Shown here piece by piece: positions 20,530 through 27,783 of a DNA stretch of 64,000 nt (position 1 is the first letter of the stretch; each line of letters begins with the position of its first letter). A model generated the notes under the pieces. That model worked only from the letters and a program-made list of their open reading frames with translations, did not search any database and was not told the DNA's origin. A program made the position numbers and the translations under genes. The stretch is from Geminicoccus roseus DSM 18922 (lineage in GTDB: Bacteria > Pseudomonadota > Alphaproteobacteria > Geminicoccales > Geminicoccaceae), in contig NZ_KE386572.1 in NCBI RefSeq assembly GCF_000427665.1, forward strand, positions 3,248,196-3,312,195, read 5' to 3'.

Positions 20530-21357
20530 TCAGGCGGGCCGCGCGATCATCTGCACCGGCGCGATGGTGCCCGCCTCCAGGGTCTTCATGACGTTGCCCA
20601 GGCGCTCCTGCGAGGCCGGGCCGATCAGCGTGTGCAGGCTGAGCGGCGGCGGCCCGTTCTTCGCCACGTTCGCCCGCATCTCCGCCCAGCGCTCCAGGGC
20701 GAAGGCGCGCCGGTCGAGTTCCTGCTCCACCGCGAAGCCGGCTTCTTCCAGCAGGGCCCGATAGGTCGCCGGCGGGACCACGAAGCTGGTGCCCTGATCG
20801 ACCGCCCAGGGCATCGGGTAGGGCAGGGGCTCCTCGCCGGTCAGCATGACGTCGTAGACGCCGAACCGTCCGTCTCGCTTGAGCACCCGGCGGGCTTCCG
20901 CGAACAGCCGGTCCTTGGCGGCGATGTTCATGCCGACATGGATCAGCGTCACCGCGTCGAAGCTGTTGTCCTCGAAGGGCAGCGCCAGGGCGCTCGCCTG
21001 GCGGAACGCCGTCTTCCCGGCCAGGCCGCAGCGGCGGCTGAGCGAGGCCGCGACCTCGACATATTCCGGCGACAGGTCGATCCCGGTCGCGTGGCAGCCG
21101 AACTCGGCGGCGAAGCAGCGGGCCGGGCCGCCGATGCCGCAGCCCAGGTCCAGGACCTGCCGGCCGGGGGCGAGCTCCATGTCGCGGGCGAAGGCCAGCG
21201 TCGCCGGCCGCCAGCCCAGATGGAACTCGTCGGCGCCCGAAAGATCGGTGGGCGCCAGCCGGTCCACCGCCCGGCCCGAGGCGGCCAGGGCTTCCAGAAT
21301 GGATTCTTCCAGCCGGCCATGCCGGTAGTGCCTGGCGACTTCGGTCTCGATATCCAT
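20530..21357 (-). CDS. Class I SAM-dependent methyltransferase
   Basis: A 275-residue methyltransferase of the Methyltransf_11/25 group. SAM motif I is VLDLGCGIGGPARCFA (about 70-85), followed by GIDLSPEYVEVA and the post-II block LPFEDNSFDAVTLIHVGMNI. ATG at 21357 has a perfect AGGAGG 6 nt upstream. The overall pattern resembles sarcosine/glycine or quinone-type methyltransferases; substrate unknown. It converges with the DUF993 gene (26-nt gap). A truncated copy of its first about 36 codons and leader lies at 23036-23150, and IS fragments flank both copies. Confidence 0.87.
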   Translation of the reverse strand: MDIETEVARHYRHGRLEESILEALAASGRAVDRLAPTDLSGADEFHLGWRPATLAFARDMELAPGRQVLDLGCGIGGPARCFAAEFGCHATGIDLSPEYVEVAASLSRRCGLAGKTAFRQASALALPFEDNSFDAVTLIHVGMNIAAKDRLFAEARRVLKRDGRFGVYDVMLTGEEPLPYPMPWAVDQGTSFVVPPATYRALLEEAGFAVEQELDRRAFALERWAEMRANVAKNGPPPLSLHTLIGPASQERLGNVMKTLEAGTIAPVQMIARPA

Positions 21358-21420
21358 GGACGCCTCCTGGGCCGTGTCGCCAAAGCTGGCGAGGTGCTGA
21401 TCCGACCCTATCGGGACCGA

Positions 21421-21516
21421 GTGACGATACGTGCCCTGCTGACGGACGCAATGTGGAACCGGCTCAAGCCCCTGTTGTTGCCGCAAAAGCCCCGGGACTG
21501 GCCGGCCTTCGATTGA
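21421..21516 (+). pseudogene. IS5-family transposase N-terminal fragment
   Basis: A 31-codon stretch ending at TGA 21516, with LTDAMWNRLKPLLLPQKPRD, matches the start of IS5-family transposases (LTDxxWxxLxPLLP). Nothing of the catalytic DDE domain follows, so it is a remnant. It sits in the leader of the methyltransferase gene. Confidence 0.6.
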
Positions 21517-21584
21517 CCGACGCAGGTTGTGGAGGCGGTTCTGTTGCTGCTGGTGCGTCTGCTCGGGAGCGCCGTCATCCGTGC

Positions 21585-21671
21585 TCATGCCTGTGCCGCA
21601 GCAGCTCCCGCCGGGCCTGCTGTAGCGGCCGTCAAGAAAACGACCAGCATGACAGGCAGAAAGATCTTCAC
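21585..21671 (-). pseudogene. Possible truncated secreted peptide
   Basis: A GTG start at 21671 with AGGA upstream opens a 28-residue frame (VKIFLPVMLVVFLTAATAGP...AQA) that is almost entirely a Sec signal peptide, then stops. In the next frame the reading continues as a Gln-rich hydrophilic stretch up to the IS fragment. It is best read as the 5' end of a broken exported-protein gene; a real small peptide is less likely. Confidence 0.3.
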
Positions 21672-21757
21672 GGTCTTGATCCTTGCTGTCAGAGAAAGCC
21701 GCTCCCCGCAAGCAGGCTGCAGGGAGCGCAAGTCAAATCCAGCAGGCATCAGCTTGA

Positions 21758-22111
21758 TTAGCGATTGAGATTTCCGTTAAAATTGCCGTTATTATTCCCT
21801 ATATTAGCATTTCCATTGATGTTGCCATTGTAACTACCTCGGTTGCCGTTCCCGTTTACGTTGCCATTATACGAACCGTAGTTCAGGTTGCCGTTGAAAT
21901 TGCCGTTCTTGCTGCCGCGGTTCAAGTTGCCGTTGAAGTTGCCGTTGTTGCTGCCGTGGTTCAGGTTGCCGTTGAAGTTGCCGTTGTTGCTACCGATGTT
22001 GCCGTTGCCGTTGCCGTTGCCATTGCCGCCGGCCCAAGCAGAGTTCAGAGTAACAGCACCCACAAGACCGAGGATGGCAAGAGAGCAAAGGAGCTTTTTC
22101 AGGATCTTCAT
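21758..22111 (-). CDS. Secreted Asn/Gly 13-residue repeat protein
   Basis: A 117-residue exported protein of unknown function. A Sec signal (MKILKKLLCSLAILGLVGAV, cleavage near AWA27) precedes a GN-rich linker and then six uninterrupted 13-residue repeats (40-117) of the form GSNNGNFNGNLNR. Polar N/G alternate with single hydrophobics (F/L, V, I), a pattern that suits a beta-solenoid or amyloid-like stack with Asn ladders. ATG at 22111 has AGGGAG 8 nt upstream; a GTG at 22120 is the alternative. The gene is lower in GC than its surroundings and lies in an AT-rich island between IS remnants. I recognise no named family. A surface or matrix structural role is only a guess. Confidence 0.75.
   Translation of the reverse strand: MKILKKLLCSLAILGLVGAVTLNSAWAGGNGNGNGNGNIGSNNGNFNGNLNHGSNNGNFNGNLNRGSKNGNFNGNLNYGSYNGNVNGNGNRGSYNGNINGNANIGNNNGNFNGNLNR
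21761..21994 (-). repeat. Six 39-bp tandem repeats (coding)
   Basis: Exactly 234 bp, six 39-bp units encoding the 13-residue repeats. Units differ mainly at the position before GS (H, R, Y, R, I, R) and at the hydrophobic slots, so the reading frame and spacing are conserved while bases drift. The array ends one codon before the stop. Confidence 0.8.
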
Positions 22112-22697
22112 AGATCGCACTCCCTATACGACATTCGGAAATATTTCCGACGCAGAAATGGTACCAAATATTTATGGTTGTATAGAACAAGATTTTATAC
22201 AACTATGAATAGTATGAAGTGAACATGCGCTTATCAAAAGCGCGAGGATTGCCGAACTGGTAACGCCACAACTTTAATTTTCAAAATTATCCATAGTAAT
22301 TATTGTTTTATGATTTGATCTTTCAACGAAATACTCTAGACATTGTGATTCAAGTAATTTTAAGTAGATTTGATTTTCCAGAGCGTGGTAGGAACGCGCT
22401 AGTATGCGTCAGCAATAAAATGGTCGTATCTGCTTGTTGACTGTTGATGATCCGCTCGTCAGCCACATGATTTGCCTGGGCGTGATCTGGCTCATGGCTG
22501 CGCAGATCATCGCGCGCCCCCTCTGGATGGCCCCTCACGATCTTCGACGAGCTGAGGTGACTGGAAACCCAGGGAGAGGCTCGTTCCCACCCATGATGCA
22601 TCAGCAGGCGGAAGAGCCGCCTTCCAAAGGGAGCGCCGCCACGCTTGGGCTCCCAGCGATAGAAGAACCACGATACGTGCCTCTCCCGACCGGCCGG
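22112..22697. other. AT-rich intergenic island, no gene recognised
   Basis: The first about 330 bp are markedly AT-rich, in sharp contrast to the GC-rich genome, and probably carry the promoter of the repeat-protein gene. The part from about 22440 is GC-rich, with no frame that shows family motifs. It may be IS flank sequence. Confidence 0.5.
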
Positions 22698-23010
22698 TCA
22701 TCGCTGATGGCTGGCCGCGTGCCGGGTCGTGTCGCCACAGCTGCGCAGCCAGATGATCAGCGAGGCGCTCTGGACGACGGCGAGGGGTGGGTGGACAGCT
22801 TGTCGTTACCTGCTTGCTGCGCGCCCAAACTGCTTGAGCTTGCCGACGAGGCGCTCGATCAGGTTGCGTTGCCGATGGGGCTGGCGGTCGGAGCCCGGAT
22901 AGCGCAGCTGGCCGATCCGGTCCGGGATGATCGGGACGATGTGCTTGCGACGCAGTGTGTCGAGCAGCCAAGCCACTGAGCATGCCTTGTCCAGCGCTGA
23001 CGGCCGCCGG
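22698..23010 (-). pseudogene. IS5-family transposase C-terminal remnant, frameshifted
   Basis: Frame A reads LDTLRRKHIVPIIPD and then RNLIERLVGKLKQFGRAASR before a stop, matching the C-terminal catalytic-Glu region of IS5-family transposases (RNLVERxxxKLKQFRR). A shifted frame continues with NDKLS and FVQSASLIIWLRS, ending at TGA 22698, which matches the normal tail. The N-terminal half is missing and the reading frame is broken, so it is inactive. Confidence 0.72.
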
Positions 23011-23035
23011 CCTCCCGCGCCGGTCGGTGCGCAAG

Positions 23036-23142
23036 GCCGCCAGCCGTCCCACATCGCGGCCCAAGGCGGCCAGGGCTTCCAGGATGGCTTCTTCCAGCCG
23101 GCCATGCCGGGAGTGCCTGGCGACCGCGCTCTCGAGGTCCAT
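23036..23142 (-). pseudogene. Truncated duplicate of the methyltransferase 5' end
   Basis: From ATG 23142, preceded by the same AGGAGG leader as the gene at 21357, it reads MDLESAVARHSRHGRLEEAI and on to GRLAAL, near-identical to the first about 36 residues of the intact methyltransferase. It then runs directly into the transposase remnant. The DNA of the two copies can be aligned base by base over about 110 bp. It is the left-over of a duplication or of IS-mediated rearrangement. Confidence 0.7.
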
Positions 23143-23201
23143 GGATGCCTCCTGCAATTCCGCATCTAGCCGAAACGCCGAATTTTCGGCATCCGTCATG
23201 C

Positions 23202-26745: not shown

Positions 26746-27783
26746 TCAGTTGATCGTGATCGGGCGGGGCATCGCCAGGGCGTTGTTGCCCTCGCGGTCT
26801 TCCGCATGCTGGGCGTCCCGGTCGAGGATGAAGCCCAGCCAGTAGCGGCCAGGGGACACGTTGCCCGGGATCGCCAATGTCCTCGAGAAGGTGACGCTGA
26901 CGCCCGGGTCGGCCCAGGCACCGGTGTTGGTTCCAAGCAGGCGGTCGCCGGTGCTGATGATGTCGTTGGTCGACAGGTAGAAGCCGATGTTGAACGTCCG
27001 CCGCGACGTGCTGAAATTGTGGAACGTCTGCTCCATGACGGCCGTCGCCCCCCGGACGGCGGCGAGGGAGCTGGAGGTGAGGCCCGAGGTGCCGGCGCCG
27101 GTCCGCTTGAAGTCGGAGGCCGCAAGGTCGACCTCGGTGGTGCCGTCCGGATAAAGGAAGCGCGCGCCGGCCCGGTCGTCGGCCAGCGGATCCCACTCCT
27201 TACCGTACCCCACAGGCCCGCTGTTCGGGTAGAACGAGTTCAGCGTGGCGAGCCAGCGGTCCTCGTGGTTCAGCCCGAGGGAATGGCCGAGCTCGTGCAG
27301 CGCCACGCTCTCGAAGCTGTAGGGCGAGCCCAGGCTGTCATAGCTGAGCGGCGACGTGGTCCAGCTGTAGTTGAGGTTGAAGCCGATATCGGTCTCGATG
27401 ATGTTCCGGCTGGAGCATTGCCAGCGGAAGAAGGTGACGGCCAAAGCCGTGCCGAGGTTGCGGGCGAAGTAGATCTCGGTGACGCCGTTGGTGTTGCTGT
27501 AGGTGCCGTCGGTGTCGCGCAGGAAATAGAAGTTGAAGCCCGAGCCCTTGACGTTGTTCCAGCGCGCCATCGCGTTCTGGAACCGGATGTCCCAGACGCT
27601 GCCCGGGGGCAGGGAGACGGTGTTGATCGACAGATTGGTCCAGCCGCGCTGCCACTTGACCGGCACCCCGCTGCAGGTGGTGTAGGCATAGGCCTGGGCG
27701 GCGGAAGCACCGAAGGTCATCAGCGGGACGATGGCAAGCGCGCCCAGCATGGACCGGCGCCAGGAAGCTGTCATGGTCGACAT
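26746..27783 (-). CDS. Secreted matrixin-like zinc metalloprotease
   Basis: 345 residues with a Sec signal (residues about 10-30, cleavage AQA), the zinc motif HELGHSLGLNHE (HExxHxxGxxH) around residue 171, and the peptidase M10 surroundings (MARWNNV, VTEIYFARNL). After it, DPLADDRAGARFLYP occupies the Met-turn region with no obvious Met. A C-terminal about 110-residue beta-rich domain resembles CARDB/Big-type adhesion modules. ATG 27783 has AGGAG upstream. It is exported, with cysteine pairs (CSG, QCSS). It follows a second exported protein by 48 nt, an operon partner that may control or anchor it. Confidence 0.85.
   Translation of the reverse strand: MSTMTASWRRSMLGALAIVPLMTFGASAAQAYAYTTCSGVPVKWQRGWTNLSINTVSLPPGSVWDIRFQNAMARWNNVKGSGFNFYFLRDTDGTYSNTNGVTEIYFARNLGTALAVTFFRWQCSSRNIIETDIGFNLNYSWTTSPLSYDSLGSPYSFESVALHELGHSLGLNHEDRWLATLNSFYPNSGPVGYGKEWDPLADDRAGARFLYPDGTTEVDLAASDFKRTGAGTSGLTSSSLAAVRGATAVMEQTFHNFSTSRRTFNIGFYLSTNDIISTGDRLLGTNTGAWADPGVSVTFSRTLAIPGNVSPGRYWLGFILDRDAQHAEDREGNNALAMPRPITIN

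Follow-up and report, generated by a model that had tools for sequence, protein, structure and literature searches.

A 64,000-nucleotide stretch of the Geminicoccus roseus DSM 18922 genome (the window) encodes a small repeat protein, here called A, which belongs to an unnamed conserved family of putatively exported proteins whose carriers mostly hold clusters of two or three such genes. The best explanation for A is that it is a secreted solenoid subunit which would stack into an extracellular fibre or matrix with two further proteins, B and C, a reading to which we give a probability of about 0.5. The new element is the conserved A family and its gene cluster, while the reading of function is plausible but unproven.

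The A gene lies on the minus strand and runs from an ATG at 22111 to a stop codon at 21758–21760, with an in-frame GTG at 22120 as a possible alternative start (Table 1). A GGGAG Shine-Dalgarno-like element lies 9–13 nt before the ATG and is also found before all three other G. roseus paralogues. The N-terminus reads as a signal peptide, called by eye rather than by a dedicated predictor, which agrees with the exported protein proposed by the sequence-only reading. A hydrophobic N-terminus was found by a simple hydropathy rule in 83 of 90 family ORFs, from loci among the matches listed. An Asn/Gly cap follows, and the motif NGNGNGNxG occurs within the first 70 residues of 63/68 A proteins (loci among the matches listed). 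Asn and Gly make up 64 of the 90 mature residues, with 17 NG pairs and no Asp or Glu. Searches of window A against Pfam, NCBIfam and PDB sequences gave no match up to E = 1, in line with the earlier view that it belongs to no named family.

The gene has a GC content of 50% and the 300 bases upstream (22121–22420) one of 34%, against 67% for the whole window, so the AT-rich island noted in the sequence-only reading is real. Upstream GC is 36–51% for the other Geminicoccus A genes, and in 44/62 loci the 250 nt before A fall in the lowest GC tenth of their own locus, a count made without a separate intergenic control. Four promoter-like sites occur in 21400–22700 on both strands, against 1.1 expected. 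The terminator-like hairpin is weak evidence, as two such sites were found against 1.7 expected.

Table 1. Features of the A gene and its surroundings in the window, with the RTX genes of two further G. roseus loci.
Feature	Position	Strand	Evidence
Methyltransferase gene adjoining the lone A; context outside the A system	20533..21357	minus	Pfam Methyltransf_11, E 1.6e-22
120-nt direct repeat, copy 1 (methyltransferase gene 5' end)	21250..21369	n/a	87% identity to 23035-23154
Candidate IS4/IS5-type transposase remnant	21397..21513	plus	Pfam DUF4096, E 0.02, 15.6 bits vs cut-off 34.3 (weak)
Terminator-like hairpin, 12 pairs, 30 nt past A stop	21700..21728	minus	Hairpin scan
Gene A (repeat protein, 117 aa + stop)	21758..22111	minus	ORF and translation, family profile match
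Six 13-residue repeats, 39 nt each, residues 40-117	21761..21994	minus	Self-comparison, Tandem Repeats Finder period 39
Single repeats	21956-21994, 21917-21955, 21878-21916, 21839-21877, 21800-21838, 21761-21799	minus	
Asn/Gly cap, residues 28-39 (GGNGNGNGNGNI)	21995..22030	minus	Sequence
Putative signal peptide, residues 1-27 (MKILKKLLCSLAILGLVGAVTLNSAWA)	22031..22111	minus	Sequence reading, end AWA
AT-rich upstream region	22112..22420	minus	GC; GGGAG at 22120-22124; promoter-like site 22326-22299
120-nt direct repeat, copy 2, beyond A gene	23035..23154	n/a	87% identity to copy 1
RTX calcium-binding protein genes	L009 7192-8253, L010 3132-4232		PF00353

Residues 40–117 amount to exactly 78 residues, or six 13-mers of the type GSNNGNFNGNLNR; the six Asn/Gly repeats described earlier are thereby confirmed, on the minus strand. 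The self-identity of these residues at an offset of 13 is 0.77, while the best of 10,000 shuffles reached 0.49 and none reached 0.77 at any offset from 2 to 39. Repeats 1–3 are near-identical in DNA (34–36 of 39 bases) and repeats 4–6 are further diverged. Eight framework positions of the 13-mer (1, 4, 5, 6, 8, 9, 10, and 12) were set by the family logo. Between the six window repeats, pS is 0.84 and pN 0.00 at these positions, compared with 0.87 and 0.45 at the five variable positions. This split indicates that silent sites are near saturation and that the Asn/Gly frame is held by selection. Chance low complexity as a source of the repeat was ruled out by the shuffles, the long register, and pS versus pN. 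The window repeat is not low-complexity drift, and its unit is kept by purifying selection.

The A family was defined here by at least three successive 13-residue units N-G-x-x-N-G-x-x-N-x-G-x-x in register. The window protein has six, together with the signal-like N-terminus and the Asn/Gly cap. Genome loci were found in a species-genome collection with a degenerate DNA pattern that spans two in-register units. At least 119 loci match this pattern, of which 70 among the matches listed contain at least three exact units in register. With taxa assigned from record titles, these 70 comprise 68 Alphaproteobacteria, two unspecified Proteobacteria and no others, while the 49 listed loci with one or two units comprise 38 from other taxa, 10 Alphaproteobacteria, and one unspecified. 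By this taxonomic comparison the long register marks a real lineage and the short matches are common low complexity. Among the matches listed, 29 loci are from Mesorhizobium (about a third of them M. soli) and eight from Methylobacterium, with further loci in Aureimonas, Labrys, Roseiarcus, Geminicoccus, Kaistia, Afipia, Amaricoccus, and others. In a viral collection, 3/23 contigs have at least three units in register; contigs L166, L179, and L185 of that collection carry A and further Asn/Gly genes.

The loci yielded 182 in-frame ORFs, 90 of which, in 73 loci, have at least three units in register. Removal of 22 that were B-like, longer than 260 aa, or without a clear hydrophobic N-terminus left 68 A proteins from 63 loci (60 genome, three viral collection), all among the matches listed; at least one of the 68 has a visibly wrong start site (L068) and some are truncated where their stretch ends. 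A profile of Geminicoccus sequences detected the family in 2/96 relatives and, across the class, in 3/289 genomes, one of them spurious. A six-row profile found 4/397 genomes in a draw from the phylum, and a 43-row profile at E 1e-10 found 2/387 in a class sample. G. roseus is included in each of these counts, and their low values indicate that the family is patchy in Alphaproteobacteria. A search of 29 further genomes from the same taxonomic family as G. roseus turned up no A. One candidate relative, in genome G317, reached E 7.8e-7 and was rejected as it has only scattered NG and no 13-mer.

Pfam and NCBIfam searches with 43 A members, including the window protein, gave no match at E 0.01. 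A tblastn search of plasmids with A had no match, and a tblastn-confirmed scan of the same genome collection confirmed none of 585 pattern stretches, a failure probably due to masking of repetitive or low-complexity sequence. A DNA search of plasmids with a Mesorhizobium cluster gave 255 records, each with less than 80% of the query covered; among them, H5 is from Paracoccus and annotated 'hypothetical protein'. Among the titles listed for the open-licence literature, none was recognised as being about the A family.

The family logo gives the A unit as G-S-x-N-G-N-x-N-G-N-x-N-x. The value of 100% at positions 1, 4, 5, 8, 9, and 12 is circular because these positions define the unit. Outside that definition, position 6 is Asn in 92% and position 10 in 99% of units. 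In 73 neighbouring 13-mers that were not picked for matching, mostly the cap coil, positions 5, 6, 8, 9, 10, and 12 are Gly or Asn in 81–88% and position 1 in 70%, with position 4 mostly Ser. The first coil of the A domain has its own pattern, SGNGNGNGNVGVG-like, and 42/68 A proteins among the matches listed have a C-terminal His, Arg, or Gln. There is no conserved hydrophobic core-like feature, as the variable positions are often Gly or polar.

Before Gly, the preference for Asn over Asp is nearly absolute. Counted from residue 23 of the 68 A proteins (loci among the matches listed), NG occurs 1682 times and DG twice. Asp-Gly is as good a turn as Asn-Gly, and Asp is required in RTX-type calcium sites. 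Asparagine ladders, made of stacked Asn side chains, are a well-known feature of parallel beta-helices. That Asp hardly occurs before Gly suggests that the amide itself matters and favours amide ladders over calcium binding.

G. roseus DSM 18922 (5.70 Mb, five contigs) has four A genes, namely the window copy (117 aa), L008 (120 aa), L009 (183 aa), and L010 (145 aa). The sequence-only reading had suggested looking for paralogues with a different repeat number, and these were found in G. roseus itself, along with relatives in other Alphaproteobacteria. Lack of conservation had been set beforehand as grounds for abandoning the idea; the opposite was found, with A conserved in both paralogues and relatives. 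In L009 and L010 the gene order is A-B-C-RTX, all on the same strand, and the terminal RTX proteins match PF00353 with E 7.2e-17 and 5.9e-23. Their B proteins have SSFAGGMF followed by NxGxx-like repeats, and C has an Asn/Gly tail. B and C thus lie downstream of A in L009 and L010 and are absent beside window A, while at L008 A is accompanied by a single further Asn/Gly protein.

In G. flavidas CPCC 101082, one contig carries A-B-C and breaks off within the gene for the same RTX protein, leaving its start. A second cluster of this species also consists of A-B-C but lacks an adjoining RTX gene, and its A is apparently split over two contigs. Apart from the start at the G. flavidas contig end, phmmer found no further RTX protein among ORFs of 80 aa or longer in the other loci examined. 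A gene read as HlyD-like (type I secretion membrane-fusion) lies ~3 kb from the second G. flavidas cluster (L028 427–1800, plus strand). G021 and G029 were rejected as carriers of B, as they encode different Asn/Gly proteins and no A was found in either.

Pairing with B extends across the relatives. Among the matches listed, B relatives (phmmer, E 1e-5) lie downstream of A, in the same orientation and no more than 1.5 kb away, in 40/63 A loci; the median distance in these 40 is 124 nt. Once 11 loci that end within 800 nt are dropped, B is downstream in 40/52 listed loci and 12 are without it. On composition alone, an Asn/Gly partner is downstream of A in 43/52 of the listed loci. Where the listed loci have 2 kb of room (45 loci), at least two Asn/Gly ORFs follow A in 22, at least one in 37, and none in eight. 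The 12 listed loci without downstream B include five from M. soli without any B, showing that lone A copies also occur elsewhere. M. soli has many A-type genes in the genomes of two strains (L061, L074, L076, L077, L098, L103, L126, L141, L162, and L165), and the five of these ten without B resemble a burst of lone copies like that in the window.

Of the 45 listed loci with 1.5 kb or more upstream of A, 33 have an ORF of the LuxR type within 3 kb on that side, and 16 of these 33 are from Mesorhizobium. Among 59 genome loci without a listed A, six have a LuxR-type ORF anywhere, all six with A- or B-type genes that had been filtered out; this contrast is not taxonomically matched, as most of the comparison loci belong to other taxa. 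For Pfam analysis, 92 of 172 flanking ORFs were picked by hand, leaving out those longer than 700 aa and those overlapping repeat genes. GerE was the commonest family (15/92), and HlyD-type matches (6/92) and ABC transporter ATPases (4/92) were also present. In the window and the examined Geminicoccus loci, phmmer detected no LuxR relative.

AlphaFold2 without an alignment predicts strands every 13 residues at a pLDDT of 57. With an alignment of 43 sequences (the window protein and 42 proteins from the DNA-pattern loci), the best model has a mean pLDDT of 82.3, with block means of 82–90 from residue 31 on, and the other four models are at 60–69; repetitive alignments can inflate these values. 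Bridges in the best model fall at 39, 52, 65, 78, 91, and 104, which is position 13 of each coil and one per 13-mer. A Foldseek search of the model against the PDB gave no match. The beta-solenoid suggested from the sequence alone therefore stands in part: the 13-residue period appears in both runs, but it is predicted with confidence only in the best model of the second. Overall there is moderate support for A as a predicted solenoid with 13 residues per coil.

The following mechanism could account for these features. The solenoid would be narrow, with each 13-mer forming one of its coils, Gly at tight turns and Asn side chains stacked as ladders. Such ladders and turns are predicted to let the coils stack and the open ends add further molecules. 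The signal-like N-terminus suggests export across the inner membrane by Sec. A, B, and C may then pass to the outside and assemble, by end-to-end stacking or with one another, into a cell-surface or matrix fibre. B is likely an XNXGX-type solenoid and a putative partner of A, with C as a possible partner where present. The LuxR-type neighbour may regulate the cluster in many carriers, and subunits made from the window copy could join those encoded by the full clusters at other sites of the genome.

It may be that the proteins fold as solenoids without polymerising. A, B, and C would then be soluble extracellular or periplasmic proteins whose flat faces bind a ligand such as a glycan, ice, or a mineral surface. 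The solenoid prediction suits this idea, positions 3, 7, 11, and 13 vary strongly between paralogues as on a binding face, and an RTX calcium-binding protein adjoins the Geminicoccus clusters. Molluscan NG domains are also reported to act with calcium ions and crystals (PMC6599672). However, the lack of acidic residues in mature window A and the scarcity of DG in the family are unlike a calcium site. The exact repetition of coils and their open ends suit stacking, and no known ligand-binding family was matched. A ligand-binding role is considered unlikely.

That A is an intrinsically disordered matrix or slime protein rich in Asn and Gly, which might phase-separate, is improbable to a similar degree. 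The 13-residue period would here reflect repeat expansion instead of a fold, which is consistent with the composition of the mature protein, the low AlphaFold2 confidence of the run without an alignment and of four of the five models built from 43 sequences, and the seemingly recent duplication of repeats 1–3. Against this, the framework is fixed in the protein while synonymous differences are near-saturated, the register is kept in the 70 long-register loci among the matches listed, and Asp hardly ever replaces Asn before Gly. Together with the conserved cap and the C-terminal preference, these features are unexpected for a spacer constrained only in composition.

The window copy differs from the full clusters in its surroundings. 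The 120-nt direct repeats bracket a segment of 1665 nt that holds the A gene and the AT-rich stretch. The fragmented G. flavidas assembly showed no counterpart of the lone A and no methyltransferase at E 1e-20, the latter in a search without a positive control. The interval 21585–21749 was considered as a B remnant and rejected, as it had no family match. A probable exported matrixin-like metalloprotease (Peptidase_M10, E 4.5e-8; 26746–27783, minus strand) is encoded 4.6 kb from A. Window A is probably a relocated lone copy between possible mobile-element scars. It is doubtful that it is a relic, i.e., a non-expressed insertion brought by mobile elements. The duplicated methyltransferase 5' end, the weak transposase remnant, the lack of B and C, and the missing G. 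flavidas counterpart would fit a relic, but the intact frame and a dN/dS of 0.14–0.22 against each of three paralogues, with silent sites near saturation, do not. The copy also has its own AT-rich upstream region, an SD-like element, and a terminator-like hairpin. The reading frame is intact and, on the dN/dS values, under constraint.

Several known systems share features with A. Like A, Pentapeptide_2 (PF01469, the XNXGX repeat of mycobacterial PPE-MPTR proteins) has short-period Asn/Gly repeats, but the A unit is longer, at 13 residues (pattern 4+4+5) against five, and A proteins are separate small putatively exported proteins, not tails of PPE proteins. PF01469 had no match among the 43 A members, including the window protein. 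Two scanned B proteins match it below the cut-off (19.1 and 20.7 vs. 26.4 bits). RTX repeats (PF00353) are likewise secreted, Gly-rich, and solenoid-forming, and a true RTX protein stands beside the Geminicoccus A-B-C genes; mature window A, however, has no Asp, no nonapeptide, and no Pfam match. The molluscan nacrein/N66 NG domain is animal and joined to carbonic anhydrase, whereas window A has no carbonic anhydrase domain, and we know of no 13-residue register in the molluscan repeats. The likeness lies in Asn-Gly repeats within a secreted matrix protein, as described in PMC6599672. For PPE-MPTR XNXGX repeats, AlphaFold2 gives a beta-solenoid with 10-residue coils according to PMC9663297. 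PMC13123833 and PMC12871928 deal with other repeats.

Curli (CsgA/CsgB) are also small exported repeat proteins encoded in a cluster. The curli cluster regulator CsgD belongs to the LuxR family, and curli repeat units are ~22 residues long. The A unit, in contrast, has 13 residues and no curlin repeat (Curlin_rpt, PF07012), for which window A had no match and the G. roseus genome 0 matches. The CsgG outer-membrane channel was found in 4/14 genomes searched, the E. coli control among them, and in 0/5 carrier genomes. A curlin-like repeat protein lies beside an A-B cluster in one Hyphomicrobiales genome (L043 6054–6674, minus strand), with a relative at L119 599–1267 (minus strand). Its match scores 21.9 bits against a cut-off of 20.7 in the genome search and 18.3, under the cut-off, in the protein scan. 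These proteins are a possible link between the A family and curli-like proteins. Some plant Methylobacterium are reported in PMC5017803 to carry csgG, a system different from A. That A is itself a curli-like functional amyloid, as a divergent relative of the CsgA system, is very improbable: small exported Asn/Gly-rich repeats clustered with a LuxR-family regulator and near-cut-off curlin-repeat matches in 2/5 carrier genomes favour it, but the repeat differs in length and pattern, no curlin repeat was found in window A or the G. roseus, G. flavidas, or Mesorhizobium genomes, and CsgG was not found in the five carriers searched.

The preferred reading of A as a stacking solenoid subunit can be extended, though only tentatively. 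In Alphaproteobacteria, A, B, and C may be the subunits of a fibre or matrix outside the cell that has not been described before and is under LuxR control. Built from near-coreless solenoids with stacked Asn amides, it would stand outside curli, Fap, and other known bacterial amyloids, and its fold would shield the deamidation-prone Asn-Gly pairs.

The A family merits a name and a profile model even without the fibre, since tblastn found 0 relatives where the DNA pattern found at least 70 loci. If the fibre reading is true, soil- and plant-associated bacteria such as Mesorhizobium and Methylobacterium would possess conserved surface or matrix proteins without a Pfam or NCBIfam model or, as far as we found, a described function. 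The A solenoid, with 13-residue coils built largely from two amino acids, would then be very simple in design and may be of use in biomaterials. With 17 Asn-Gly pairs in 90 residues, A would also offer a test of how a protein escapes deamidation outside the cell.
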